Positions 1 to 56,419 of a DNA stretch of 56,419 nt are shown piece by piece (the stretch's first letter is position 1; each line of letters opens with the position of its first letter). The stretch comes from a virus. The DNA lies in the IMG/VR virus record IMGVR_UViG_3300021354_000009, positions 1 through 56,419 of that record; one strand, 5' to 3'. Below the pieces are notes generated by a model. That model was not told where the DNA came from. It made no database searches and was given only the letters and a program-made list of their open reading frames with translations. The position numbers were made by a program, and so were the translations under genes.

Positions 1-314
1 GAGACAGCACTCACAGTGATTGGACGCTTGTGCGTTGGATCACCGTAGAAGTTATCGTGGAAGTGGTGAGGCACTACGATATCCAAGAGAGCGCCATTCT
101 TGCAGACGCGGTGCAGTTCCTTCATCAACGGGATGAAGCTCTCACCGATATGCTCAAGGATATGGTGCGCCCTGATCTCTTCAACAGAGTTGTCCTCAAA
201 GGGCAACTTAGCGCCCTCAATGTTAACTAGGTAATCTGGCTCAACCAATGGGTCATCATCGACGTTTACAAAACCCTCGATGCGTTTATACCCACTACCT
301 AAGTTAACCTTCAT
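1..314 (-). CDS. SAM-dependent methyltransferase, N-terminal part (gene cut by the window ends)
   Basis: This is the 5' part of a gene that continues at the other end of the window (56022-56419). The start ATG at 314-312 overlaps the stop of the upstream gene (ATGA). The N-terminus has a class I methyltransferase motif I, NLGSGYKRIEGFVNVD, as in the COG4627 type of small methyltransferases. Joined through the 126-bp overlap the protein is 192 residues, a normal size for this group. Bases 1-7 do not match the other copy, so the reading frame here is reliable only down to about position 8. The substrate is unknown. Its neighbours (APS kinase, sulfotransferase-glycosyltransferase, RCC1 proteins) suggest glycan or surface modification, but this is inference. 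Confidence 0.75.
   Translation of the reverse strand, partial: MKVNLGSGYKRIEGFVNVDDDPLVEPDYLVNIEGAKLPFEDNSVEEIRAHHILEHIGESFIPLMKELHRVCKNGALLDIVVPHHFHDNFYGDPTHKRPITVSAV
8..133. repeat. Direct repeat of the window ends, copy 1
   Basis: These 126 bases are identical to 56294-56419. The methyltransferase gene reads through the join in one frame, so the simplest reading is a circular assembly written out with an overlap, meaning a complete, circular or circularly permuted phage genome. A true direct terminal repeat is less likely, because bases 1-7 do not continue the match and the repeat lies inside a gene. The length is close to common assembler k-mer sizes. Confidence 0.9.
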
Positions 315-700
315 AGAGCATCCAAAGCGTCGTGAGTAGTGCAAGCATCAATTGCGGCTTGCTTAGTCAACATCGCTTGGCGTGCTGTCTCTACAGCATT
401 AGCATCATATGAATCAGGGTTACGGGCTTGTTGGTTCACAACTTGTTGGAACTCAAAACCAGCGTTAGCTCTCATGCCACCCTTGCGGTCATCAACAGAG
501 ATCTCGTATGTATCCCAGATGATTTGCACTGGATCAGCGTTGAGGTCATAGCGATGTGCTGTGTACCCTTGACGGCCAGCTTGGATTGACGGGCGAACCT
601 CGACGGCATTACGCCATCCGTTGTTGCCTACGCCTTCTGAGGGAGGTGTATCCCAGACCTGCTTTACTTCGTTTCCGACTACTTGAACATAATGTGTCAT
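311..700 (-). CDS. Small phage protein, possible fibre-assembly partner
   Basis: The product is 129 residues. I chose ATG 700-698 because it follows AAGGAG at good spacing; a longer frame upstream lacks such a site and runs into the RCC1 gene. The middle contains WDTPPSEG, NGWRNAVEVRP and IWDTYEISVDDRKGGM, and the C-terminal half is rich in Ala and Gln. The segment with DPVQIIWDTYEISVDDRKG resembles small proteins often encoded just after tail-fibre genes, some of which act as fibre assembly chaperones. It lies directly after the RCC1 genes and overlaps the methyltransferase gene by ATGA. No catalytic motif is visible, and the chaperone role is a guess from position. Confidence 0.7.
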   Translation of the reverse strand: MTHYVQVVGNEVKQVWDTPPSEGVGNNGWRNAVEVRPSIQAGRQGYTAHRYDLNADPVQIIWDTYEISVDDRKGGMRANAGFEFQQVVNQQARNPDSYDANAVETARQAMLTKQAAIDACTTHDALDAL

Positions 701-720
701 GTGTGACTCCTTGTAAAAAA

Positions 721-1887
721 TTAAACTGATGCAATTGCCGTTGTGTTGGCAGAAGATCCAGCCGATATTGCTGTCCAACTAGTTAATGTGCCAACTTGTT
801 TTGGTGCTGATAAATTAGTTGTGTTACCTTGCCCCAACTGACCACTACTATTTGGCCCCCAAGTATAAAGAGTGCCAATTGTTGTTAGTGCGCCAGTACT
901 GTAAAGGCCTGCGCTTATTTGCAACCAATTAGTTGCAGAACCAATTTGCTTGGGGGAAGAATAGCTGGTTGTATTTCCTAGCCCCAATTGACCAAATGCT
1001 CCTTGACCCCAAGACCACATAGTGCCATCTGTTTTAATGGCTATTCCATTACTATATCCTGCGTCAATTTTTGACCAAGTGGTTAATGCACCAATTTGTT
1101 TTGGTGAGGAATAATATGTTGTGTTCCCAAGCCCAAGCTGGCCTACACCATTGTTTCCCCAAGCCCACAGAGTGCCGTCGGTTTTAAGTGCCAATGTATT
1201 ACCTAAAAGACTTGAAACTTTAGCCCAAGTTGTTAATGCGCCAATTTGTTTTGGTGAGGAGTAGTTTGTTGTGTTGCCAAGACCTAATACCCCGCCACCA
1301 CCTGAACCCCACGCCCATAATGTTCCATCTGTTTTAATGGCAAAAGTAGATGTGGCGGCGCCAGCACTACCTTGAACAAAAGCCCAATTGGTTAAAGCCC
1401 CAATTTGCACTGGGGAAGAATAGTATGTTGTATTACCTAATCCCAATTGACCACTTTGATTTCTTCCCCAACCCCACAAAGTGCCATTTGTCTTTATTCC
1501 AAAAGCAGTATATTGTCTAAGAGAAATAAAAGACCAATTGGTTAATGAGCCAACTTGTTTTGGGGAAGAATAATTGTTTGTGTTTCCAAGACCAGTACTA
1601 CCAAAACCACTACCACCCCAAGCCCAAAGTGTGCCATCTGTTTTTGTAGCAAGATTAACTGAAGAACCGCAACTAATAAGATTCCATGTAGTAAGCGATC
1701 CAACTTGTTTTGGGGACGAATAACTTGTAATATTTCCAACACCAAGTTGGCCAGAAGCGTTATCACCAATAGTAAATAAATACGGCACTGGCTGGCTAGG
1801 CCAAGTCCCCAACGCCCTTGCATTGGCTACACTGCTAAGACTCCATGAGCCTGAGTATTGAACGCCTGATACTGTTGTTGTTGCCAT
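721..1887 (-). CDS. RCC1-repeat beta-propeller protein (pair B, second member)
   Basis: The product is 388 residues. After a short N-terminal segment (VSGVQYSGSW, then GTWPSQPVP) it consists of seven repeats of about 50 residues following the pattern KTDGTLWAWG-x-N-x-x-GQLGLGNTT-x-YSSPKQIGALT-x-W. Seven repeats match the seven-bladed propeller of the eukaryotic RCC1 family. The last repeat is the most divergent. RCC1 repeats serve as binding platforms; in a phage beside fibre genes the likely role is adhesion, receptor binding or fibre decoration, not chromatin regulation. Its N-terminus matches that of the protein at 4815-5990. The upstream RCC1 gene ends 4 bases before this start, and GAGATAA acts as a modest ribosome binding site. 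Confidence 0.85.
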   Translation of the reverse strand: MATTTVSGVQYSGSWSLSSVANARALGTWPSQPVPYLFTIGDNASGQLGVGNITSYSSPKQVGSLTTWNLISCGSSVNLATKTDGTLWAWGGSGFGSTGLGNTNNYSSPKQVGSLTNWSFISLRQYTAFGIKTNGTLWGWGRNQSGQLGLGNTTYYSSPVQIGALTNWAFVQGSAGAATSTFAIKTDGTLWAWGSGGGGVLGLGNTTNYSSPKQIGALTTWAKVSSLLGNTLALKTDGTLWAWGNNGVGQLGLGNTTYYSSPKQIGALTTWSKIDAGYSNGIAIKTDGTMWSWGQGAFGQLGLGNTTSYSSPKQIGSATNWLQISAGLYSTGALTTIGTLYTWGPNSSGQLGQGNTTNLSAPKQVGTLTSWTAISAGSSANTTAIASV

Positions 1888-1891
1888 TTGT

Positions 1892-3031
1892 TTATCTCAA
1901 AGCAAAAGATGAATTTAGCATGGCGGCAACGGTAGACCACGTTAAAACCGACCCAACTTGCTTGGGGCTAGAGTAAGCGGTTACATTGCCCAACCCAAGC
2001 TGACCATTGGAGTTATAACCCCACGCCCATAAAGAACCGTCAGTTTTGGTTGCCATAGTAAAACTAGATGCACCTTGCGATGCCGCCACCCACGTAGTCA
2101 ATAAGCCAACTTGCTTAGGCGAAGAATAACTTGTTCTATTGCCAAGTCCTAGCTGTCCACGGTTGTTGTAGCCCCATGACCACAGAGTACCATCAGTTTT
2201 TGTATTGGCGGCACAAGCATATCCAGCATTAACAGTACGCCAAGTGGTAAGAGCGCCAATCTGTTTTGGAGATGAATAATAAGTAGTATTGCCAAGACCA
2301 AGTTGTCCTTGGCTATTGCTACCCCATGACCACATAGTGCCGTCAGTTTTAATGGCAAACGTCATAGGGTCTAAGTATGCTGATGTAGAAATCTTAGACC
2401 ATGTAGTCAATGCTCCGATTTGCTTTGGCGAAGAATATGACGTAGTATTTCCCAAACCTAACTGACCTACGTTACCACTACCCCAAGACCACAATGTGCC
2501 GTCAGTTTTTAAAGCAATAGTTTGATTATAACCAGCGGCAACATTGAGCCATGTAGAAAGTAATCCAACTTGCACAGGACTAGACCGATATGTAGTATTG
2601 CCTTGACCTAACTGACCATTATTATTGCGGCCCCACATCCATAATGTTCCATCAGTTTTAACTGCGCCAGTAAATCCTTCGCCACAAGCTACCTGCGCCC
2701 AAGTAGTTAATGCACCAACTTGTATGGGGCTAGAATAATTTGTAAGATTTCCATTACCCAAGTTGCCATAGCCGTTATATCCCCACATCCACAAGGTTCC
2801 ATTGGGCTTTAAAGCCGCCGCAAATACATTGCCAGCAGAAGCAGAGACGCTTGCCCACTCACTAGTAGCTCCAACTTGTACAGGAGATGAATAGGCGGTA
2901 GTGTTGCCTAATCCCAACTGACCTTGTGCATTGCGGCCCCAGCTATACAAATCATAAAAAGTCGTACTCGTCTGCGTCCCAAGCGGATTAAAGCCGGGCT
3001 TGTTGATGGCCGCTACGTAGCGATTGCTCAC
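1892..3031 (-). CDS. RCC1-repeat beta-propeller protein (pair B, first member)
   Basis: I place the start at GTG 3031-3029. It overlaps the stop of the upstream sulfotransferase gene (GTGA), has AAGGAT upstream, and gives an N-terminus (NKPGFNPLGTQTS) that matches the paralogue at 5994-7121. The product is then 379 residues with seven RCC1 repeats, for example IALKTDGTLWSWG and GQLGLGNTTSYSSPKQIG. It is predicted to fold as one seven-bladed propeller. The codons for the N-terminal motif keep a 27-base stretch (2969-2995) identical to 7053-7079. It probably works with the next gene, since the same two-gene arrangement occurs twice. Its function as an adhesin or receptor-binding part is inferred. 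Confidence 0.83.
   Translation of the reverse strand: MSNRYVAAINKPGFNPLGTQTSTTFYDLYSWGRNAQGQLGLGNTTAYSSPVQVGATSEWASVSASAGNVFAAALKPNGTLWMWGYNGYGNLGNGNLTNYSSPIQVGALTTWAQVACGEGFTGAVKTDGTLWMWGRNNNGQLGQGNTTYRSSPVQVGLLSTWLNVAAGYNQTIALKTDGTLWSWGSGNVGQLGLGNTTSYSSPKQIGALTTWSKISTSAYLDPMTFAIKTDGTMWSWGSNSQGQLGLGNTTYYSSPKQIGALTTWRTVNAGYACAANTKTDGTLWSWGYNNRGQLGLGNRTSYSSPKQVGLLTTWVAASQGASSFTMATKTDGSLWAWGYNSNGQLGLGNVTAYSSPKQVGSVLTWSTVAAMLNSSFALR
2969..2995. repeat. 27-bp exact repeat in paralogous RCC1 genes, copy 1
   Basis: These 27 bases are identical to 7053-7079. They encode the conserved KPGFNPLGTQT segment near the N-terminus of the first RCC1 protein of each pair. The surrounding repeats differ at synonymous sites, so exact identity here is notable. 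It may reflect a recent duplication or a recombination point. Confidence 0.85.
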
Positions 3032-4800
3032 GAAACCATCCTTAGTTCTACTTTGTTCATGTTCAATCTCTCTTTGATTTTGTTGAACGGAGCATCCCAC
3101 TCACCAAACACTTCTTGACGCAACAGCTTCATGGTGTCGTAGTACGGGCACTTATCGCCATCTAAAGCATACAGGTAGTACCCCATCACAGGGATAACCA
3201 CCCAAGTCTCCACACCCATAGCCGCCGCCAAATGGCTCACGGACGTACATGAACTGATGACTAAGTCGCAGGATGCAACAGCGTTTTTAGTGTCTTCCCA
3301 AGTATTCAATGGTACTTGTTTTACCCACGTAGGGCAAGCATCTGCACCCTCATCGCGCTGTAAAGATATGAACTCATAGTCCGTGCCTCGCACTGCATCA
3401 AACAGCATTTGGTATGGGAAGCGTTTGTTATGGTCGTCCTCGAATTTGCTGTTACCTTGCCAACGCAGACCAATGCGTTTCTTGTAACCTTTGATGACTG
3501 CGGGCTTGTCAATATACGCATCCCCACGTAGGTCTGCCATCTCGTAGCCGAGGTAGTACGGAGCCACCATAGCAAAGCACCAGAAGTCGTGGTAGACGCC
3601 GTATTCCGCGCCGTGCTGAATGACAGCAGATACGCCTTCAATCTTATTGAACAAACCCACCAAAGCGCCTGAACAGCACACTACTACCTTGTTACCCCTC
3701 GCAACTAAGTCACGGGCGTAACGCACTTGGTGGATTTGATCGCCAAGGCCGTGATCGCAGTACAGCAGGATCGTGCCTTTTGTCTTGCCGTCCCACTCTG
3801 GGGCTGGGGTGTCTGGGAACTTCTCACCAATGATTCCACAGAAGCGCCCTCTGTTCATCTCTCTATAGCCCTCACCGACCTTGCCCTGTTTGAGCAAGTA
3901 CCAACTGCGGTTGTACGCGGCTCGGTGGTCATTGGGACGCTCGGCATTGAGCTTCTCTGAGAGTCTCCACCCTTCGGTAAAGTCACCCATCTTGCCAGCC
4001 GCGACTTGGAGGTCTAAGTCATCTAACTCAGGCATCGTGCGTGCGTTGTCATTCCAGAACTCTGGTTGGCAGAATTGGTTGTAGTGGTGCTTCAATAAGT
4101 CTTTGGACTTGTCATCGTGCTGTTTAGCCAAGACGGGCTTGACATCGTGCATACCAGCGTAGCCGTGTAGGTTCTCGTCGTCTTCCTTGACCGAACTGCC
4201 GTCGATGTTGCTGAAGTCGTAGGCGTATGGCTCCAGACCCAAGAACTCATGGATGCGGTCTAGTTGACCCTTTGGATCAGCAAGGAGTTCGTCATACACA
4301 ACGAATAGGAAGTTCTCTGGCATGGCTTTGTAGCCCGCTTCCAACGACAGATATGCCGCCTTTAGGTGGTCAGCCAACTGTCCAGAGTACATGAATTTAT
4401 CTAGATCATCAGGCTTTGCCACGCGCACGAACGACGCCATGCAATCAGGCACAGGACGCACGGTAGCGATCACCTTACAGGGACGATTCAGCACTTGGTT
4501 CATCGCACCCATGATCTGGGGGATAGGCCACCCACGGGACTTGTCAATGATGACAGGCTTGTCTGTGTCTTCGTAGAAAGCATCAATACAGCCACGCATT
4601 GTCTGCGCGAGCTTCTTGCGTTCAGGGTCGTTCTCGTTTAACAGGCCAGCCGAGTGCCATGTGTTGGCAAGCCCATCAAGGGCGTGGACAAGGCCAGATG
4701 TCGTAGAGACGTGGGTTGCGGGGTTTTGGTTCAGGATAGCCGCCAAGACGGTAGAGCCTGAACGTGGAATGCCAGAGAGGAAGTGTAGTGTTTTGTTCAT
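3028..4800 (-). CDS. Sulfotransferase-TPR-glycosyltransferase fusion
   Basis: The product is 590 residues. Residues 1 to about 265 look like a sulfotransferase: HFLSGIPRSGSTVL at the N-terminus is the 5'-phosphosulfate loop that binds PAPS, and ATVRPVPDCMASFVR fits the 3'-phosphate site. Residues about 270-325 form a TPR-like helical segment (AAYNRSWYLLKQGKVGEGY). Residues about 330-585 resemble the GT9-type C-terminal domain found on TPR proteins, with YCDHGLGDQIHQVRYARDL, IGLRWQGNSKFEDDHNKRFP and SCDLVISSCTSVSHLAAAMG. One chain may therefore bind or build a glycan and sulfate it. It sits between the two RCC1 pairs. The start ATG at 4800 has no strong ribosome binding site. Acceptor and activity are unknown. 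Confidence 0.8.
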   Translation of the reverse strand: MNKTLHFLSGIPRSGSTVLAAILNQNPATHVSTTSGLVHALDGLANTWHSAGLLNENDPERKKLAQTMRGCIDAFYEDTDKPVIIDKSRGWPIPQIMGAMNQVLNRPCKVIATVRPVPDCMASFVRVAKPDDLDKFMYSGQLADHLKAAYLSLEAGYKAMPENFLFVVYDELLADPKGQLDRIHEFLGLEPYAYDFSNIDGSSVKEDDENLHGYAGMHDVKPVLAKQHDDKSKDLLKHHYNQFCQPEFWNDNARTMPELDDLDLQVAAGKMGDFTEGWRLSEKLNAERPNDHRAAYNRSWYLLKQGKVGEGYREMNRGRFCGIIGEKFPDTPAPEWDGKTKGTILLYCDHGLGDQIHQVRYARDLVARGNKVVVCCSGALVGLFNKIEGVSAVIQHGAEYGVYHDFWCFAMVAPYYLGYEMADLRGDAYIDKPAVIKGYKKRIGLRWQGNSKFEDDHNKRFPYQMLFDAVRGTDYEFISLQRDEGADACPTWVKQVPLNTWEDTKNAVASCDLVISSCTSVSHLAAAMGVETWVVIPVMGYYLYALDGDKCPYYDTMKLLRQEVFGEWDAPFNKIKERLNMNKVELRMVS

Positions 4801-4814
4801 GGGATTAGTTTATA

Positions 4815-5990
4815 TCAGGTAGAGGCAATTGCTACTACATTATTTAAACTACAAGAAACAGATGACCAAGTTGTTAATGATCCAACCTGTTTAGGGGATG
4901 AATAGTTTGTTGTATTACCTGTACCTAGTTGTCCATAATTGTTTTGACCCCAAGTCCAAAGGGTTCCATCAGTTTTAGTAGAAACGGTAAAGTATCTACC
5001 CGATGCAATAGTTAACCAATTTGTTAATACACCAATTTGTTTTGGAGATGAGTAATTAGTTCTGTTTCCAAGACCTAATTCTCCAATACTATTTATTCCC
5101 CAAGACCAAAGAGTTCCGTCTGTTTTGGTGGCTAATGATGTGTATGGGCCTGCATTTGTAATAAGCCATGTGGTTAAAGCGCCAATTTGTTTTGGTGAAG
5201 AATAATTGGTGCTATTGCCAAGGCCTAATTGGCCACCTGCGCCTTGATAATTGGAATTCCAACCCCAAGACCATATTGTTCCATCGGTCTTAATAGCCAA
5301 GGCATGAAAAAACCCCGCAGTTATTTTTGACCAAGTTGTCAAAGAACCAACTTGTTTTGGAGAAGAATAAGATGTAGTGTTATTAAGACCTAGTTCGCCA
5401 TAATCATTTCTAGCCCATGACCAAAGCGTACCGTCGGTTTTAATAGCGTAAGAACTATATGCACCTGCGGCTGTAGTAAGCCAAGTGGTTAAACTGCCTA
5501 TTTGTTTAGGTGATGAATAATAGGTTATGTTTCCCAAACCTAATTGGCCAAAACCATTACCACCCCAAGCCCATAATGTACCGTCTGTTTTGGTAGTTAA
5601 AACATTGAAATATCCTACAGATATTTTTGACCAATTAGTTAAAGCTCCAACTTGTTTAGGTGACGAATAAGATGTTGTATTACCTAAGCCAAGTCTACCG
5701 CCGGGACCATAACCCCATGCCCACAAAGTACCGTCCGTTTTAATTACAAGAGATGCGCCTATTGATGTACCAGTTGGTAATACTGACCAGCTAGTAAGAG
5801 TGTCAACCTGCTTGGGGGATGAATAATTAGTCGTGTTACCTAATCCAAGCTGACCATTACTGTTTAAACCCCACGCATACAAATGCGGAGCAGGCTGAGT
5901 CGGCCAAGTCCCTGCCGAAATAGCAGAGTTAACCTGTTGCATTGTCCAGATGCCTGAGTATTGAACGCCTGATACTTGTAATGTTGCCAT
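4815..5990 (-). CDS. RCC1-repeat beta-propeller protein (pair A, second member)
   Basis: The product is 391 residues. The N-terminus VSGVQYSGIW and GTWPTQPAPHLYAWG is shared with the protein at 721-1887, which marks the two as paralogues. Seven RCC1 repeats follow; the fifth carries a short insertion (WNSNYQGAGGQ). The start ATG 5990 has AAGGAT upstream and lies 3 bases after the stop of the preceding RCC1 gene. Residues in the loop after WAWG or WSWG vary from blade to blade while the GQLGLGN and YSSPKQ parts stay constant, as expected for a propeller with a variable binding face. A surface-binding role is inferred. Confidence 0.85.
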   Translation of the reverse strand: MATLQVSGVQYSGIWTMQQVNSAISAGTWPTQPAPHLYAWGLNSNGQLGLGNTTNYSSPKQVDTLTSWSVLPTGTSIGASLVIKTDGTLWAWGYGPGGRLGLGNTTSYSSPKQVGALTNWSKISVGYFNVLTTKTDGTLWAWGGNGFGQLGLGNITYYSSPKQIGSLTTWLTTAAGAYSSYAIKTDGTLWSWARNDYGELGLNNTTSYSSPKQVGSLTTWSKITAGFFHALAIKTDGTIWSWGWNSNYQGAGGQLGLGNSTNYSSPKQIGALTTWLITNAGPYTSLATKTDGTLWSWGINSIGELGLGNRTNYSSPKQIGVLTNWLTIASGRYFTVSTKTDGTLWTWGQNNYGQLGTGNTTNYSSPKQVGSLTTWSSVSCSLNNVVAIAST

Positions 5991-5993
5991 GAT

Positions 5994-7121
5994 TTATCCT
6001 TGGGCAATAACATGATACTGGCCACCATCAAAAACACCCCAAGTTGTAGATACTCCCACTTGTTTTGGTGATGAGTAGCTTGTAGTATTTCCAAGACCTA
6101 ACTGTCCTTCTGTGCCACGACCCCAAGCCCAAAGCGTTCCGTCAGTTTTAGATGCAAGTGTAAATTCTTGACCGCCAACAGCAAGATTTAACCAGTTGGT
6201 TAATGAACCCACTTGTTTGGGTGAGGAATAATATGTCAGATTGTTAAGGCCTAACTGTCCTGTTTGATTTTGTCCCCACGCCCAAAAAGTACCGTCAGTT
6301 TTAACAGCTACGGTGTAATACGCACCACCAGAAACTTTTAACCAATTTGTTAATGCGCCAATTTGTTTGGGAGAGCTAAAGTTAGTTCTATTTCCAATCC
6401 CTAGTTGACCAACTGCATTATTTCCCCAAGACCAAATAGTTCCATCGGTTTTAACAGCATATGAATTTACCCTACCAGCAGAAACAGTTGACCAATTAGT
6501 TAAAGCGCCCACTTGTTTAGGAGATGAATAATATGTTGTATTTCCAAGTCCAAGTTCACCGTATGGATTTTGACCCCATGAGAATAATTGACCCGAAGTA
6601 TTGATTGCAACGCAATGCGCTCCTCCAAAAGCAATTTTGCTCCAAGTGGTTAATGATCCAACTTGTTTTGGAGATGAATAAGATGTTGTGTTACCAAGGC
6701 CTAATTGACCAGAACCGCCATATCCCCATGCCCATAACGTACCATCGGTTTTAATAACGTAAATTTGTGGGCCAAATCCTTGGGCAATATACGACCATGT
6801 AGTCAATGAACCGACTTGCTTGGGCGAAGAATAATATGTTGTATTACCAAGACCTAATTGGCCACTGCCATTCGAGCCCCATGCCCATAAAGTACCGTCA
6901 TTACGAATTGCATAAGAAGAATTTGTTGCGCCAACATTTGTCCAATACAAAGAACCAACTTGTTTTGGCGAGGAATAATTTGTTCTATTATTAAGTCCAA
7001 GCGCCCCATCTGCGCCACTACCCCAAGTAAATAGGTTATATGCATAGGAAGACGTCTGCGTCCCAAGCGGATTAAAGCCAGGCTTAATAATACTTCCCAG
7101 ATTTTGTTGGCGTAAGCTCAT
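5994..7121 (-). CDS. RCC1-repeat beta-propeller protein (pair A, first member)
   Basis: The product is 375 residues and starts MSLRQQNLGSIIKPGFNPLG, which aligns with the first member of pair B. Seven RCC1 repeats follow (for example YAVKTDGTIWSWGNN and GQLGIGNRTNFSSPKQIG). It is the first RCC1 gene after the fibre genes in the direction of transcription, so the propeller array sits where receptor-binding or fibre-tip genes are expected. There is no signal peptide or membrane segment, which fits a virion protein or cytoplasmic assembly factor. The close repeats make gene conversion between copies plausible. Confidence 0.85.
   Translation of the reverse strand: MSLRQQNLGSIIKPGFNPLGTQTSSYAYNLFTWGSGADGALGLNNRTNYSSPKQVGSLYWTNVGATNSSYAIRNDGTLWAWGSNGSGQLGLGNTTYYSSPKQVGSLTTWSYIAQGFGPQIYVIKTDGTLWAWGYGGSGQLGLGNTTSYSSPKQVGSLTTWSKIAFGGAHCVAINTSGQLFSWGQNPYGELGLGNTTYYSSPKQVGALTNWSTVSAGRVNSYAVKTDGTIWSWGNNAVGQLGIGNRTNFSSPKQIGALTNWLKVSGGAYYTVAVKTDGTFWAWGQNQTGQLGLNNLTYYSSPKQVGSLTNWLNLAVGGQEFTLASKTDGTLWAWGRGTEGQLGLGNTTSYSSPKQVGVSTTWGVFDGGQYHVIAQG
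7053..7079. repeat. 27-bp exact repeat in paralogous RCC1 genes, copy 2
   Basis: This copy is identical to 2969-2995 and lies in the codons for the shared N-terminal KPGFNPLGTQT segment of the first RCC1 gene in pair A. Confidence 0.85.
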
Positions 7122-7135
7122 TGGCTACTCCAAAA

Positions 7136-7510
7136 TTACGATATGACTTCGTATGAGATCGTGTAAGTGATTCCGCTTGCAGTACCCGATGTCACCGTGA
7201 TGGACTTGTCTTCCATCAAATAGATGGCAGTCGTTTTATCCACAGCAATCACTGACGCGCTTGCGGGCACAGCAATAGTGGAGATCACTGGGTAAGCAGT
7301 ACCACCACCTGCCGCTACACTGTTAATTGACACGGTAGCATTTACAGCCGAAGTACCGTTCACGTTAGCGCACACGATCTGGTTGATCTTGTAGACCTGA
7401 CCACTGGATGCGGCGTTAGATAGCAACACGTTAGCAGTTGTATTGGTAGGTGTTAAGTACGTGGTCGTGCCAGACGCTGTGGTCGCCGCAAGAAGATTTG
7501 GATTAGCCAT
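7136..7510 (-). CDS. Small Thr/Ser/Ala-rich virion protein candidate
   Basis: The product is 124 residues with no charged core and many Thr, Ser, Ala and Val residues, predicted to be beta-rich (for example SAVNATVSINSVAAGGG). Such composition is typical of phage fibre or decoration proteins. The start ATG 7510 has a strong AAGGAG site upstream. It lies between the fibre genes (7520-10230) and the RCC1 array. It has no motif that identifies a family with certainty. A trimeric head-like domain or collar protein is possible. Confidence 0.65.
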   Translation of the reverse strand: MANPNLLAATTASGTTTYLTPTNTTANVLLSNAASSGQVYKINQIVCANVNGTSAVNATVSINSVAAGGGTAYPVISTIAVPASASVIAVDKTTAIYLMEDKSITVTSGTASGITYTISYEVIS

Positions 7511-7519
7511 GTTAGCTCC

Positions 7520-8083
7520 TTAAATACTGAAGATAAAGTTGATCATTGTCGCTTTGGCTTGTGTGACGCCAGAAGCCGCGGGTGCAGACGATACCCAACC
7601 AGAACCGTTTGATGTCAACACGTTTCCGTTAGTTCCAGATGACGTCAAACCTGTACCACCGTTTGCGGCAATTAAAGTCCCCGCCAACGTGATAGCCCCA
7701 GTTGAACTGGTACTTGGCGTAAACCCTGTGGTGCCCGCGCTGAATGATGTCACACCACCAGTACTGGCCGCCCAAGTTGGTAAACCGCCAGACAATGTCA
7801 ACACATAGCCATTAGTGCCTACAGCCAACTTGCTTAGAGTATTTGTAGCCGATGCATATAGCAAGTCACCAGTGGTGTAGGTCGTCAGACCCGTACCGCC
7901 TGCGGTCGTTGGCGTTGTCTTCCAAGCGATAACTTGTACAGCGTTCGAATTGTCTTTGTAGAACAACTTACCATCGGTGACGTTGATCGCCAACTCACCA
8001 TTTGCAAGATTTGTGTTTACAGGAACGGAAGCCGCTGTAGTGCTGTAGTACAGCGAAATTGGGGTATAGCCTGATGCGGACAT
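7520..8083 (-). CDS. Short tail-fibre protein
   Basis: The product is 187 residues. The N-terminus contains NLANGELAINVTDGKLFYKD, a pattern seen at the N-termini of phage fibre and tropism proteins (Mtd_N-like), where it forms the attachment domain. The rest is Gly/Thr/Ser-rich repeat sequence (AGGTGLTTYTTGDLLYASA, NGGTGLTSSGTNGNVL) typical of a fibre shaft. It starts at an ATG that shares a base with the stop of the large fibre gene (TAATG), so the two are translationally coupled. One copy of the genome-wide palindrome CCAGTTSAACTGG lies inside it at 7698-7710. Confidence 0.75.
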   Translation of the reverse strand: MSASGYTPISLYYSTTAASVPVNTNLANGELAINVTDGKLFYKDNSNAVQVIAWKTTPTTAGGTGLTTYTTGDLLYASATNTLSKLAVGTNGYVLTLSGGLPTWAASTGGVTSFSAGTTGFTPSTSSTGAITLAGTLIAANGGTGLTSSGTNGNVLTSNGSGWVSSAPAASGVTQAKATMINFIFSI

Positions 8084-10230
8084 TAGAAAGTTCCTCCAGT
8101 AATGCCACCTGTAATTGTCCCATTAACGGCATTACAAGTTATTGATGAGTTTACCAATTCAGGTAGATTTCCGCTAGTAGCAGTTACAAAAGTTAAGTAA
8201 TTTGTTGCACCAGAAGATGCTGACGTAATACCCACATTAGTTGCGTTTGTTGCGGTTCCTGACGTCTCTGCGTTTAAGTTAGCCACTTGAGTTGTGGATG
8301 CAACCGTTAAAGGAGCCGTACCCGTGGCTATTGTCGAAATAAGCCTTGTACCTTGCACCGTCTGAGACGTAATAATTGCAGAGCCAGTGCTTAGTGTGTT
8401 TGTGCTCCAAGTGGTGTTTGCTGGCGCTTGGAAATGGGTGTCCCATGAACCTGCCGCTATTGCATTAGATAAAAGAGTTACATCAACAAATCCACCCGAA
8501 GGTACAGACACAATAAGTGTCCCTGAATTATTGTTGACTGTTATGGCACCACTGCTTTGGTTATTGTTGAATGTGTAATTAACACCATTTGCCAAAGTTG
8601 TTGCATTAGGTAATTGATATGTCTGCCCACCAGAACCAGTAACTACATAATTTGGTACAGATGCAACTGTTAATGTCGTGGTTGTACCAGTTGCGGCAAC
8701 ACTTAAATAACCTTGGCTAAGTGAATTTACAGAAATATTTTGATTTGCATCTTTAACAACAATGCCACTTGCACCGTTGGTTGCATTACCCAAAGCCGTT
8801 AATACACCAGTTCCAGTGGTTGTGGTGCTTGGAGCCACGCCTGCACCGCCCCCAATCATCAAAGCGCTAGCCGTTAAAACCGCGCTTGATGCCCATGTAC
8901 TTGCAGAACTGAAGTAAACAACACCGCCAGAGGTGCCTGCAACGGTCAAAGCAGGGGTTGTAGTTGGTGTTGCTACAGTAATTAAACCGCCAGTAAAACC
9001 AACGCTAGTAACCGTACCTGATGAAGTACTAATGGTTGCCCAAGTTCCATCACCTCGCAAATACGTGGTGGATGATGGTGTTCCTGAAACTGCACCAGAT
9101 AACGCTGTAACGCTAGAAATTAATGTGCCAGATGTTGGCAACGTAACTGCCGTATTTGCAGTTGCCGTAAAAGATTGTGTAAAAGCGCCTGAGTGCGTTA
9201 AGTTACCACCAATTGTGATCGTGCTTGATCCGTTGTTTACCCCAGTGCCACCACTTGCACCGCCTAGAGTACCACCCAAAGTAATCACGCCCGTAGTTGC
9301 AGTCGATGGCGTTAAACCACTTAAAGATGTTTGAAAAGAGGTAACCCCACCCGCAGAACCATTTGATGCAACAGTAATTTGACCTTGAGCATTAACAGTG
9401 ATGTTGGCATTTGTGTAGGAGCCTGCAACCACTGTTGTGTCAGCAATTGAAATAGTGCCTGTCGAGGTGATAGGGCCACCCGTAAGACCAGTTCCAGTTG
9501 CAACAGAAGTAACACCAGTACCCGTGGTAATTGAACCCCACACGCCATTTGCATAGCCTTCAAATGTTCCAGTAGTAGTGTTGTATCTAAGTTGGCCATT
9601 TGTGGCACTACCACGTTGTCCAGTAGTACCACTAGGAATTGTTATTGAAGCGGTGCCTGGCACCACTGGGTTAGACGCAATACCTATAGTGGGCGAACCA
9701 CCTATGCCGTTTCCATTGCTAACACTAATTTGATTAGTAGTACCAACGATTGTGGTAGCTGTAACAGTGTTTCCGTTAACAGTTAATAAACCAACCGCAC
9801 TTGTACTAGAAATGTTTTGTAAAAGTTGGCTTAAACCGATCAAAGGATTTGCAGAAACACCATCACCATTAGAGACGGTCATCCCTGAGCCAACCGTTAT
9901 TGAACGGTTTGTGACTGTGCTAGCGCTATCTTTGACAATAATTCCTGTACTTGCGCTATTCAAACTTGCTGACGCGCCAGTCATGTTGATTCGCAAAGTG
10001 GTGCCTGCGCCACCATCAGTTAAAGATAACCCAGTGCTAGTCGTTAAATAACGCGCTTGGGTCAATCCTGAAGTTGATCCAACAGTCAAAAACGGATAGT
10101 TCAGTGCGCCCGCACCAGAAATAGAGCTAGTAGTGGTTTGTACAGTTACACCGTTTTGAACAATAGGTACAAGCTCAGAACCCGTCAAGGCTGATGCGTT
10201 TGGTAGTTGGGTAATGGTTATATTGGCCAT
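8083..10230 (-). CDS. Long tail-fibre protein
   Basis: The product is 715 residues. It begins MANITITQLPNASALTGSEL, a start often seen in phage fibre proteins, and continues with beta-rich Gly/Thr/Ser repeats such as GASGGTGVNNGSSTITIGG and SSTTYLRGDGTWATIST, which are common in fibre shafts. No chaperone or peptidase domain is visible at the C-terminus. It is probably trimeric and forms the main host-contact fibre, with the 187-residue protein encoded immediately after. The gene starts 2 bases after the preceding stop. Confidence 0.8.
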   Translation of the reverse strand: MANITITQLPNASALTGSELVPIVQNGVTVQTTTSSISGAGALNYPFLTVGSTSGLTQARYLTTSTGLSLTDGGAGTTLRINMTGASASLNSASTGIIVKDSASTVTNRSITVGSGMTVSNGDGVSANPLIGLSQLLQNISSTSAVGLLTVNGNTVTATTIVGTTNQISVSNGNGIGGSPTIGIASNPVVPGTASITIPSGTTGQRGSATNGQLRYNTTTGTFEGYANGVWGSITTGTGVTSVATGTGLTGGPITSTGTISIADTTVVAGSYTNANITVNAQGQITVASNGSAGGVTSFQTSLSGLTPSTATTGVITLGGTLGGASGGTGVNNGSSTITIGGNLTHSGAFTQSFTATANTAVTLPTSGTLISSVTALSGAVSGTPSSTTYLRGDGTWATISTSSGTVTSVGFTGGLITVATPTTTPALTVAGTSGGVVYFSSASTWASSAVLTASALMIGGGAGVAPSTTTTGTGVLTALGNATNGASGIVVKDANQNISVNSLSQGYLSVAATGTTTTLTVASVPNYVVTGSGGQTYQLPNATTLANGVNYTFNNNQSSGAITVNNNSGTLIVSVPSGGFVDVTLLSNAIAAGSWDTHFQAPANTTWSTNTLSTGSAIITSQTVQGTRLISTIATGTAPLTVASTTQVANLNAETSGTATNATNVGITSASSGATNYLTFVTATSGNLPELVNSSITCNAVNGTITGGITGGTF

Positions 10231-10232
10231 AT

Positions 10233-10580
10233 TTACTGCCCCGGTGATGGACTCAAAGTATCAAGGTTTCCGTTATTAGAAGGCGTTTGAGTGTTTTGCT
10301 CAGGTGAAAGATCAAGTTGATTATCACCTGTTGTGATGATTGCGTCAGGATCCACAGCTACGCTAACGTCAGGACGTGGATACGCCAATGTAATGCGCTC
10401 AGTCTTGCGTGCAGGCAACCGATACGGATCCTTTTGATCAGCACAACCTTGTTGACAAACGCGAAGGCCTGGAAAATTTGGATCAGGCATTTCTTCAACA
10501 ATTGGTCTTTTCATCTTGCATCTGTCGCAAATGAAAATTGCAATTACTGCATTGCCTTCGGTGTTTAAAAAACGAGGCAT
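10233..10580 (-). CDS. Small zinc-ribbon-like protein
   Basis: The product is 115 residues. Residues about 17-47 contain CDRCKMKRPIVEE and RVCQQGCADQKDPYR, giving a C-x2-C and a C-x3-C pair that could bind zinc. The C-terminal 50 residues are Pro/Asp/Asn-rich and look disordered. GAGGTAAGA precedes the start. It lies between the adaptor-like gene and the fibre genes, so a structural or assembly role is likely, but I do not recognise a defined family. Confidence 0.65.
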   Translation of the reverse strand: MPRFLNTEGNAVIAIFICDRCKMKRPIVEEMPDPNFPGLRVCQQGCADQKDPYRLPARKTERITLAYPRPDVSVAVDPDAIITTGDNQLDLSPEQNTQTPSNNGNLDTLSPSPGQ

Positions 10581-10582
10581 TC

Positions 10583-11656
10583 TTACCTCGTGTACACGCT
10601 AATGTTTGGAGCAAAGTAGATTGGTGACTTATCACGCTCTTCTTGCTCCGCCATGATGAAGTACTTCTCCGCTTGGGCTTCCAAGTATTGAATCTTTGCG
10701 AGATCAATGGCAGGCAACTGTTGGCTCATTTGGTGAGCTAGCATATTCTGTATAGCCATCAACCAACGGTCTGGGATAGCCAATTGACCGTTCAGTGCAC
10801 CAACGTCTTCCACTTGGCTTGAATACCACACGGTCATTTGATAGAACGCGCTCTGTGGGGTTGGCCACAAAGTGATAGTTGCTTGGGGAATGGTACGGTT
10901 CAACCAGAACTGGAACGGTTGGTTTGCCGTAAAGTTCTTGTTTGGTAAGTTGGTGTAGTCATCACGGTTCAAACGAGCCATGGTGATTTCTGTTGAGTTC
11001 ACACCCAAGTACCACTCACGGATAGCCAAAGTAGTACCACCAAACGCTTGAATACGGTAGTACTGGACGTTTGCGCCTGGATCTATGTCTTGCCACAACC
11101 ACTGTCCATCCGTCACAGTAACCGCAGTTGCCGTGTACAGCGTCGTCCAAGTCGATCCATCGCTAGATGCTTGGTAGTAGTAACTCCACGTAGCAGAGCC
11201 TCCACCAGACACGTATGGCATCATGCCAATTGAGCCAATGTACTGAGGATTGTTTGTTCCGTAATTGACCACGATATTGCCATTGGCGCTACCTTGTTGG
11301 CAATAAGTTGCCACGTTGTCATCAGCCACGTTTTGGACGATACCGCCCGCACTCGTGGTGTACGAACCAATAGGTTGCGTCATCCAACGATACAAGGCGT
11401 TTAAAACGTCTACCCCACCCGTGGGTAGCAAGTACTCGTATTTGTTCGGCTGAAGCCCGTATACGTACTTCTTGATGGCAAAGTATTGGATACCTTGGTT
11501 GATCAAGTTGCTCAAGATCATGAAGAGAGACTGTTTTGAGGCTTGTACCTGTTCAACAGTCAACTCTTCCGCCAACTTGCCCGCGCGTCTAGCCCCATCA
11601 TCGATCAAGTTCTGAACGGTGATTACTGTTTGACCGACTGTTCCGCTAGTTGACAT
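10583..11656 (-). CDS. Head-tail adaptor (P22 gp4-like) with inserted beta-sandwich domain
   Basis: The product is 357 residues. The N-terminal 95 residues (LIDDGARRAGKLAEE, FMILSNLINQGIQYFAIKK) and the C-terminal 130 residues (RDDYTNLPNKNF, FWLNRTIPQATITLWPTPQ, IPDRWLMAIQNMLAHQMS) resemble P22 gp4-type and related adaptors that join portal to tail. Between them, residues about 100-225 form a beta-rich insert with WSYYYQASSDGSTWTTLY and QYYRIQAFGG, a pattern like discoidin (F5/8 type C) carbohydrate-binding domains. GAGGTAA precedes the start. The adaptor assignment is fairly firm; the sugar-binding idea is inference. Confidence 0.7.
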   Translation of the reverse strand: MSTSGTVGQTVITVQNLIDDGARRAGKLAEELTVEQVQASKQSLFMILSNLINQGIQYFAIKKYVYGLQPNKYEYLLPTGGVDVLNALYRWMTQPIGSYTTSAGGIVQNVADDNVATYCQQGSANGNIVVNYGTNNPQYIGSIGMMPYVSGGGSATWSYYYQASSDGSTWTTLYTATAVTVTDGQWLWQDIDPGANVQYYRIQAFGGTTLAIREWYLGVNSTEITMARLNRDDYTNLPNKNFTANQPFQFWLNRTIPQATITLWPTPQSAFYQMTVWYSSQVEDVGALNGQLAIPDRWLMAIQNMLAHQMSQQLPAIDLAKIQYLEAQAEKYFIMAEQEERDKSPIYFAPNISVYTR

Positions 11657-11665
11657 TGTTTACCT

Positions 11666-12061
11666 CTACCAATTGGGGCAATTCCACCGTTTTAGTGATG
11701 CTTTTGCTCTCGGTGCATCACCCTTTGCATGTTCTACAACGCCACTCATTCTTGCGCAAAAAGAGTCTTTACGGGCTCCGCCTTGAGGTTGTGGAGCCTT
11801 TAAATGGCTACCAGTCTCACGGTTGTACTTTGCACGACCTTTAGCGGTCAGACCAGCCCCCTTTGACTCTGGAAGCTTCTCACCCCTACCAATGGCAAGA
11901 GAGACGCCACCTTTGCTCATTTTGGCTGTTTTGGCTGACTCTTTAAACGCTTCAGCAGTTGGGGCACCTTTGCTACCAACTCTGCGCATTTTTTCGCCAG
12001 AGCCATTAGCAATTCTTTGCTGTTTTGCATGAATGTTTGCATATAGACCTTGTTTAGCCAT
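11666..12061 (-). CDS. DUF6321-like small basic protein
   Basis: The product is 131 residues, very basic. The segment with GLTAKGRAKYNRETGSHLKA, QGGARKDSFCARMSG matches the DUF6321 pattern known from phages and some bacteria. A SKGGVSLAIGRG segment adds a Gly-Gly motif seen in several other proteins here. Its function is unknown. It lies between the adaptor-like gene and the DUF6496-like gene, inside the head and tail region, so a virion or packaging role is plausible. Confidence 0.72.
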   Translation of the reverse strand: MAKQGLYANIHAKQQRIANGSGEKMRRVGSKGAPTAEAFKESAKTAKMSKGGVSLAIGRGEKLPESKGAGLTAKGRAKYNRETGSHLKAPQPQGGARKDSFCARMSGVVEHAKGDAPRAKASLKRWNCPNW

Positions 12062-55572: not shown

Positions 55573-56025
55573 TTATGCCAAACAAATCTCACGCATTAGC
55601 CAACTCTCTTTTGAGAGCTTCATCATCTTGGCAACTTCTTCTGCGTAGTACTGCATACTAAACGTGCCATTGACCCGAACATTGTAATTTTCTGGGGGTA
55701 CAAATAACTTGTTTGTATCTTCAAACCGACCCTCTTTGATGCGGTCTACCCATACAACAAAGTCAGGTGCAAACGCCTCTCTTGTCTCTGGCGTAGGGCA
55801 TACAAAGTCAGCAATCACATAAGCACCGTATCTAGATGCTATGTCGCACAACACGCCCATACGTCTGGCTTGCTCTAACCTGTCGGCTATGCTGAACCCC
55901 AAGTCTTTGTTGATCTCTTTGCGTATCTCGTCAGCATTGAAGTGGACGCACATAAGCTCCCTAGCCAAAGCCGTGGCCAGAGTTGTCTTGCCTGAGCCGG
56001 GCAAACCCATGATTAGTATCTTCAT
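55573..56025 (-). CDS. cysC: APS-kinase-like protein (PAPS-forming candidate)
   Basis: The product is 150 residues. GLPGSGKTTLATALARELM (7-25) is the P-loop. HFNADEIRKEINKDLGFSI and DRLEQARRMGVLCDIA match the APS-binding motif of adenylylsulfate kinases, and VIADFVCPTPETREAF and DRIKEGRFEDTN are typical. It would phosphorylate APS to PAPS, the donor for sulfotransferases. The host would supply APS from ATP sulfurylase. Its start overlaps the methyltransferase stop by ATGA. The sulfotransferase gene lies about 5.3 kb away on the circle. Other P-loop kinases of unknown substrate have a similar look. Confidence 0.78.
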   Translation of the reverse strand: MKILIMGLPGSGKTTLATALARELMCVHFNADEIRKEINKDLGFSIADRLEQARRMGVLCDIASRYGAYVIADFVCPTPETREAFAPDFVVWVDRIKEGRFEDTNKLFVPPENYNVRVNGTFSMQYYAEEVAKMMKLSKESWLMREICLA

Positions 56026-56419
56026 TTGACAGCCCTCATCTTAATCATTGTGTGCAAAGCGACGTTGTTGGCTTCACGCATCAAACGACGGAACATGAAC
56101 TGCTCGTCGTGCGTCATAGTGCCGTTCTCGGTCTTTTGCTTCATCATGTCTACCATGTTCTGGTAGAACGGGTCGTACTCAAAGTCGTACCATTCCATGT
56201 CAAAGTCGATGCCGTACTTCAAAGCCATGCCTGAACTGGAGCCATAGGCTTCCTTGTGCTCTTCGCAATGCTTCTTTGAGAATAGGTACATCCCACTCAC
56301 AGTGATTGGACGCTTGTGCGTTGGATCACCGTAGAAGTTATCGTGGAAGTGGTGAGGCACTACGATATCCAAGAGAGCGCCATTCTTGCAGACGCGGTGC
56401 AGTTCCTTCATCAACGGGA
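56022..56419 (-). CDS. SAM-dependent methyltransferase, C-terminal part
   Basis: This is the 3' part of the methyltransferase whose start is at 314. Residues include MKELHRVCKNGALLDIVVPH, HFHDNFYGDPTHKRPITVSG and EWYDFEYDPFYQNMVDMM. The chain ends RAVK and overlaps the APS-kinase start by ATGA. Joined with 134-314 it forms one 192-residue frame. The C-terminal basic helix (EQFMFRRLMREANNVALHTM) is usual for the group. Confidence 0.78.
   Translation of the reverse strand, partial: PLMKELHRVCKNGALLDIVVPHHFHDNFYGDPTHKRPITVSGMYLFSKKHCEEHKEAYGSSSGMALKYGIDFDMEWYDFEYDPFYQNMVDMMKQKTENGTMTHDEQFMFRRLMREANNVALHTMIKMRAVK
56294..56419. repeat. Direct repeat of the window ends, copy 2
   Basis: Identical to 8-133 over 126 bases. 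The copy here continues correctly into the methyltransferase gene, so it is taken as the true sequence at the join. Confidence 0.9.

Follow-up and report, generated by a model that had tools for sequence, protein, structure and literature searches.

Sulfotransferases have been described in the phages S-SRM01 and S-SKS1 and in an OM43 phage, and the function of phage sulfotransferases has been stated to be unclear (PMC10580990). The cysC genes (APS kinase) of freshwater phages have been read as agents of assimilatory sulfate reduction (PMC10914622), and a review from 2025 puts phage cysC among the genes 'not validated' (PMC12713726). A search of an open-access library found no paper linking a phage sulfotransferase with cysC or PAPS. 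Here we analyze a 56.4-kb IMG/VR phage record (the window, meaning the whole stretch of DNA) in which genes for an APS-kinase-like protein and for a sulfotransferase occur together in a cassette of adhesin genes, and we compare it with related phage loci.

Gene organization and phage relatives

The window was treated as a circle, a reading justified by the exact 126-bp repeat at its ends (8-133 is identical to 56294-56419). Nearly all of its long genes, including every window gene located below, are carried by the minus strand. In the order of transcription, the tail genes and a small protein (7136-7510; a weak phrog tail match of 0.017, with the same place in relatives by synteny) are followed by RCC1 β-propeller proteins D (5994-7121; PF00415, 8.8e-68) and C (4815-5990; PF00415, 4.1e-67), a sulfotransferase-glycosyltransferase (ST-GT) fusion (3028-4800), and RCC1 proteins B (1892-3100; PF00415, 3.9e-77) and A (721-1887; seven repeats; PF00415, 1.8e-63). 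The fusion is thereby surrounded by four tandem seven-repeat RCC1 genes spanning 721-7121. Beyond RCC1 A lie a small ORF (311-703, within a listed ORF of 311-778), which synteny shows to be conserved in relatives, again after the adhesin genes and before the kinase, a methyltransferase-like gene running across the terminal repeat, and the kinase gene (55573-56025), each linked to the next by a 4-nt overlap. The N-terminal part of the methyltransferase-like gene occupies 8-314, with its ATG at 314, and its C-terminal part 56022-56419 (PF08241, Methyltransf_11, 7.2e-5), where a 4-nt overlap joins its stop to the kinase ATG. Small proteins, a holin and an endolysin are encoded downstream of the kinase. 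An initial annotation of this DNA placed the kinase and the sulfotransferase about 5 kb apart on the circle in the same direction, in agreement with starts 5.06 kb apart, 3.3 kb between the genes and a shared strand. It also placed a methyltransferase between them, which holds for the Methyltransf_11-like gene and is incomplete in that two RCC1 genes and the small ORF intervene as well.

The terminase (TerL) and the stabilization protein are respectively 73% and 67% identical to those of MW202545, an uncultured phage from a Florida spring and the nearest sequenced relative, and both are about 41-44% identical to those of Caulobacter phages. These identities make a freshwater alphaproteobacterium a plausible host. 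The region 1-12000 of the window showed no near DNA match in the phage collection searched.

The APS-kinase-like protein

The 150-aa protein predicted from 55573-56025 carries a P-loop, GLPGSGKTT, at residues 7-15 (55981-56007). Its best Pfam family is APS_kinase (PF01583, 4.3e-15; 56.5 bits against a cut-off of 21.1), with the match covering residues 3-84 only; it also matches phrog_10255 (4.4e-34), and its best match in a sequence search of the PDB is the APS-kinase domain of PAPSS1 (3.5e-9). An AlphaFold (AF2) model built on an alignment with 36 phage sequences reached a pLDDT of 94.9, and in a Foldseek comparison of this model with the PDB the best 50 of 176 matches (E<=0.001) were all APS kinases, with TMq up to 0.82.

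Individual residues were aligned with E. coli CysC and then interpreted with the help of the APS complex of M. tuberculosis CysC (PMC4373884). In this alignment the base Asp480, the phosphosulfate-binding Arg483, the adenine-stacking Phe492 and Arg497 of the mycobacterial enzyme correspond to D32, R35, F44 and R49 of the phage protein, with spacing identical to that of E. coli CysC. Across 36 phage kinases D32, R35 and R49 are invariant and F44 is present in at least 90%. Asp478, a Mg-water ligand and the first Asp of the DGD/LDGD motif, is replaced by Asn30 (FNAD), which is invariant across the phage family, and the ISP serine of APS kinases is Cys76. A lid of ~30 residues is deleted in the alignment, leaving Arg559, Lys562 and Phe576 of the mycobacterial enzyme, of which Lys562 is held to stabilize the transition state (PMC4373884), with no aligned partner. 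Judged by its sequence, the product is APS-kinase-like: the core that recognizes APS is complete, and the lid is shortened. Conversion of APS and ATP to PAPS is plausible for such a protein, while the missing lid residues and the change from Asp478 to Asn30 count against this step. The initial annotation had called an APS-kinase-like P-loop protein at this position, and the profile matches, the retention of R35, F44 and R49 and the closest folds all bear it out.

A long form of the kinase (262 aa; L016:9339-10127, L154-L184) has an added NMNAT-like HxGH nucleotidyltransferase domain, and both long and short forms keep the APS-binding Arg/Phe/Arg. The identification of this extra domain as an ATP sulfurylase is unsupported, its nearest solved relatives being NMN adenylyltransferases (1f9a, 2.4e-10). 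In the Stenotrophomonas phage Bhz60 the long kinase (L002:7556-8732) lies beside NADAR, MazG and DNA methyltransferase genes in a genome without a sulfotransferase, and its substrate there may be different from that used elsewhere.

Elsewhere among phages, members of this kinase family are joined to DUF2061 by a 4-nt coupling of the genes or, as at L040:6331-6948, by fusion. In a GTDB scan for this domain, 56 of 80 bacterial loci had cysD, cysN or cysC within the flanks retrieved; a plasmid search returned three matches, all unannotated. This bacterial neighborhood of DUF2061 associates the phage kinase with sulfate activation, and it suggests that DUF2061 itself has a role in sulfate activation or transport.

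The sulfotransferase-glycosyltransferase fusion

The 590-aa ORF at 3028-4800 combines a Sulfotransfer_3/TPST-like region (residues ~1-250) with a TPR and GT-B region (residues ~260-585). Its sulfotransferase matches (Sulfotransfer_3, PF13469, 4.1e-15, 57.1 bits against a cut-off of 27; Sulfotransfer_1, 3.3e-10) are limited to residues ~7-190, and like the kinase it scores above the Pfam cut-off. The PAPS 5'-phosphosulfate loop GIPRSGST, noted in the initial annotation, lies at residues 10-17 (4750-4773). Across 39 homologues P12-T17 (PRSGST), R115 and S123 are invariant, the latter two forming a candidate 3'-phosphate pair 8 residues apart. The SULT 3'-phosphate pair Arg130/Ser138 shows the same 8-residue spacing. 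The AlphaFold (AF2) model has a pLDDT of 83.5 overall and ~90 in the TPR/GT-B part; in Foldseek comparisons human TPST2 (2.9e-8) and TPST1 come first, followed by other sulfotransferases, among them glycan sulfotransferases (3-OST).

The initial reading of this protein as a sulfotransferase stands for the N-terminal domain and missed the C-terminal ~325 aa, which form a separate TPR/GT-B domain. A Pfam search found no match in this half, while Foldseek places it close to SPY (SPINDLY; 3.3e-5), TibC (3.4e-5) and an OGT homologue (1.7e-4), and a GT9/GT41-like motif can be recognized by eye towards its C-terminus. In many RCC1 phages where no sulfotransferase was detected, a separate homologue of the GT domain is kept, at ~36% identity. 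The GT domain is the usual companion of the RCC1 genes and the sulfotransferase an optional part. RCC1 arrays with a TPR-GT neighbor recur widely in the tail regions of phages (L365-L438), and have the appearance of a separate system of glycosylated adhesins.

Linkage of kinase and sulfotransferase

For the comparisons across phages, window-type (short-form) kinases were defined by the DLGF motif and the lack of an extra domain. Locus counts, including those for the GT homologues of RCC1 phages, use sulfotransferase and kinase profiles built from our own sequences, and whole-contig counts use Pfam. All samples were drawn by similarity from fragmentary records, and related contigs are not independent.

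Starting from the window-type kinase, a sulfotransferase lies upstream on the same strand in 57/57 unique informative loci. In 35 of these it is within 150 bp, mostly with the 4-nt stop/start overlap ATGA, and in the other 22 it is within 7 kb, as either an ST-GT fusion or a more distant sulfotransferase. The sulfotransferases adjoining kinases are only 22-31% identical to that of the window (about 25%), and match Sulfotransfer_3 at 1e-11 to 7e-20 in the examples scanned. Among whole kinase contigs Sulfotransfer_3 is found in 47 of 50, the remaining three being truncated contigs on which other genes of the cassette can still be seen. Starting from standalone sulfotransferases, a kinase follows directly downstream in 25/27 informative loci (12 short and 13 long), and the two kinase forms replace each other after near-identical sulfotransferases. 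When contigs are sampled through the RCC1 gene, which is blind to both partners, 11 have kinase and sulfotransferase, 1 the kinase only, 13 the sulfotransferase only and 25 neither (Fisher p=0.0006); the sole kinase-only contig is cut inside the fusion gene. This recurrence in dozens of contigs means that the pairing is not due to chance. The kinase tree implies at least 11 switches between standalone-sulfotransferase and ST-GT contexts, as read from few columns and with many unresolved forks.

The association has exceptions. Kinase relatives occur without any sulfotransferase in the Stenotrophomonas phages Bhz60 and DLP_6 and in T4-like phages, and none of 31 loci with S-SRM01-type cyanophage sulfotransferases has a kinase nearby. 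Phages with RCC1 and GT genes and no sulfotransferase lack the kinase, which, like the S-SRM01-type loci, speaks for the specificity of the pairing. Two contigs (L462, L463) have an L106-type sulfotransferase with no recognizable kinase downstream despite enough sequence. More elaborate arrangements are also seen: on a phage contig of 222 kb, two sulfotransferase genes stand in tandem with one kinase gene of each form, short and long, along with FkbM-like methyltransferase and carbamoyltransferase-like genes (L133:4513-11368), and in another locus (L094:10088-10817) the sulfotransferase-kinase pair precedes a cupin-like gene and an HldE-type CTP_transf_like gene, a hint of ADP-heptose or other sugar supply.

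Functional context and candidate acceptors

Standalone sulfotransferase-kinase pairs come directly after tail genes of the Lcl_C type and a gene of ~141 aa, and the ST-GT fusion sits between RCC1 genes. In MW202545 the place of the module is occupied by an endosialidase (tailspike) and a tail fiber, and no match to the fusion or the kinase was found in that genome. This placement among adhesin genes, together with the replacement in MW202545, indicates that the module travels with the receptor-binding cassette, which in turn points to an adhesin or a sugar on an adhesin as the likeliest acceptor. Judged by gene position alone, the phage's own adhesins or their glycans are likelier acceptors than the host surface. 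The initial annotation had named a glycan, a fiber or a host-surface molecule; the RCC1 and tail-fiber contexts favor the fiber or adhesin side of that proposal, and the host surface less.

We accordingly favor, at a probability of roughly 0.68, a sulfation module inside the receptor-binding cassette, through which host APS would become phage-made PAPS and then sulfate on adhesins or their glycans. As the window has no match to the ATP-sulfurylase or CysD families, APS must come from the host, where ATP sulfurylase would make it. The fold, the catalytic Asp, the APS-binding Arg/Phe/Arg and the genomic linkage suggest that the phage kinase phosphorylates the 3'-OH of APS to give PAPS. The earlier proposal of a phage sulfotransferase served by phage-made PAPS draws strong support from fold, binding residues and linkage, and would be confined to this last step of PAPS synthesis, the window also giving no match to PAPS reductase (CysH). 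The PAPS loop, the Arg/Ser pair and the TPST-like fold are consistent with a sulfotransferase domain that takes sulfate from PAPS, and the SPY/OGT/TibC-like fold with a fused TPR/GT-B domain that probably adds a sugar to protein. By position, the likeliest acceptors would be the RCC1 adhesins on both sides, or their sugars, and such modification may alter receptor binding or the surface charge of the virion. The kinase relatives without sulfotransferases, the sulfotransferases without kinases and the NMNAT-like long form count against a sulfation module.

In a more specific version of this proposal, the single ST-GT enzyme would both glycosylate and sulfate the RCC1 adhesins with phage-made PAPS, tuning receptor binding, with the sulfate carried either by sugars or by the tyrosine in a repeated NTTxYSSP motif. 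We offer this joint reading tentatively, at odds well short of even. The four RCC1 proteins of the window contain 25 copies of YSSP, which makes the tyrosine of the motif a weak candidate acceptor site. An association of tyrosine in RCC1 repeats with the presence of a sulfotransferase (Mann-Whitney p=0.014, with kinship ignored) is kept only as a lead; its exceptions include L377, with sulfotransferase and kinase and no tyrosine, and L412, with no sulfotransferase and a value of 0.8.

Sulfation of a host or secreted glycan such as capsule, O-antigen or exopolysaccharide, serving as a barrier to superinfection or as a means of remodeling the host surface, would draw on the same enzymes. Phages commonly alter the surface of their hosts; methyltransferase and GT-like genes are present in the cassette, and 3-OST-type glycan sulfotransferases appear below the TPSTs among the fold matches. 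The closest folds of both domains are nonetheless protein sulfotransferases and protein glycosyltransferases, the module recurs in unrelated phages with RCC1 or Lcl_C tail genes around it, and MW202545 combines different adhesins with no match to the module, all of which render a host-glycan target unlikely. A further doubt concerns the kinase, which might act on another 3'-OH, on a nucleoside or in an NAD pathway. The lost lid and the Asp478 replacement would fit such an activity, as would the NMNAT-like C-terminal domain of the long form (1f9a, 2.4e-10) and its NADAR/MazG context in Bhz60. Set against this, the top folds are all APS kinases, the APS-binding Arg/Phe/Arg is kept in both forms, which interchange after near-identical sulfotransferases, DUF2061 provides a link to CysDNC, and the short form found in the window lacks the NMNAT-like domain and always accompanies a sulfotransferase. 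We regard this alternative as quite improbable overall; for the long form, given its NMNAT-like domain, a nucleotide-pathway role may still apply.

Least probable, and by a wide measure improbable, is auxiliary assimilatory metabolism, in which the kinase would boost host sulfate reduction by supplying PAPS to CysH for cysteine synthesis and the sulfotransferase would be a coincidental neighbor. Both routes use APS kinase, and this is the published interpretation of freshwater phage cysC (PMC10914622). It is difficult to reconcile with the 4-nt coupling of sulfotransferase and kinase, with the place of the kinase in an adhesin cassette and with the Pfam counts for the kinase contigs, in which the PAPS reductase family is above its cut-off in 0/50 and a sulfotransferase present in 47/50. 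The want of PAPS reductase in these contigs and in the window argues against the assimilatory interpretation, and phage cysC genes of the window type probably serve sulfation, not sulfur nutrition.

Comparison with known systems

The proposed sulfation module, with its conserved and translationally coupled sulfotransferase and APS kinase in adhesin cassettes, ties phage cysC and phage sulfotransferases together. As phage cysC is common in virome surveys, the proposal, if true, changes the reading of a widely reported auxiliary gene: phages would make PAPS to sulfate something at their receptor-binding end, and sulfation would join the known phage modifications.

The genes of environmental phages that carry an APS kinase annotation (K00860; PMC10914622, PMC9529941), those of the former study from freshwater, were read as assimilatory, whereas the window type is linked with sulfotransferases and shows no such link with PAPS reductase. 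The sulfotransferases of S-SRM01, S-SKS1 and the OM43 phage (PMC10580990) belong to the same Pfam family as that of the window, and the S-SRM01 gene likewise lies beside RCC1 and TPR-GT genes; unlike the window phage, S-SRM01 and S-SKS1 have no APS kinase in their genomes. Relative to cellular APS kinases (CysC, the PAPSS1 domain, PF01583), the phage kinase is alike in fold, P-loop and the equivalents of Asp480, Arg483, Phe492 and Arg497, and differs in having only 150 aa, no lid, Asn in place of Asp478 and Cys in place of the ISP serine. The fusion resembles Sulfotransfer_3 proteins and TPST1/TPST2, its best Foldseek matches, in the PAPS loop and the Arg/Ser 3'-phosphate pair, but is phage-encoded, joined to a TPR/GT-B domain and only about 15-21% identical to the TPSTs. 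It shares the TPR and GT-B fold with the SPINDLY, OGT-like and TibC protein glycosyltransferases, from which its GT-like domain is set apart by being fused behind a sulfotransferase.
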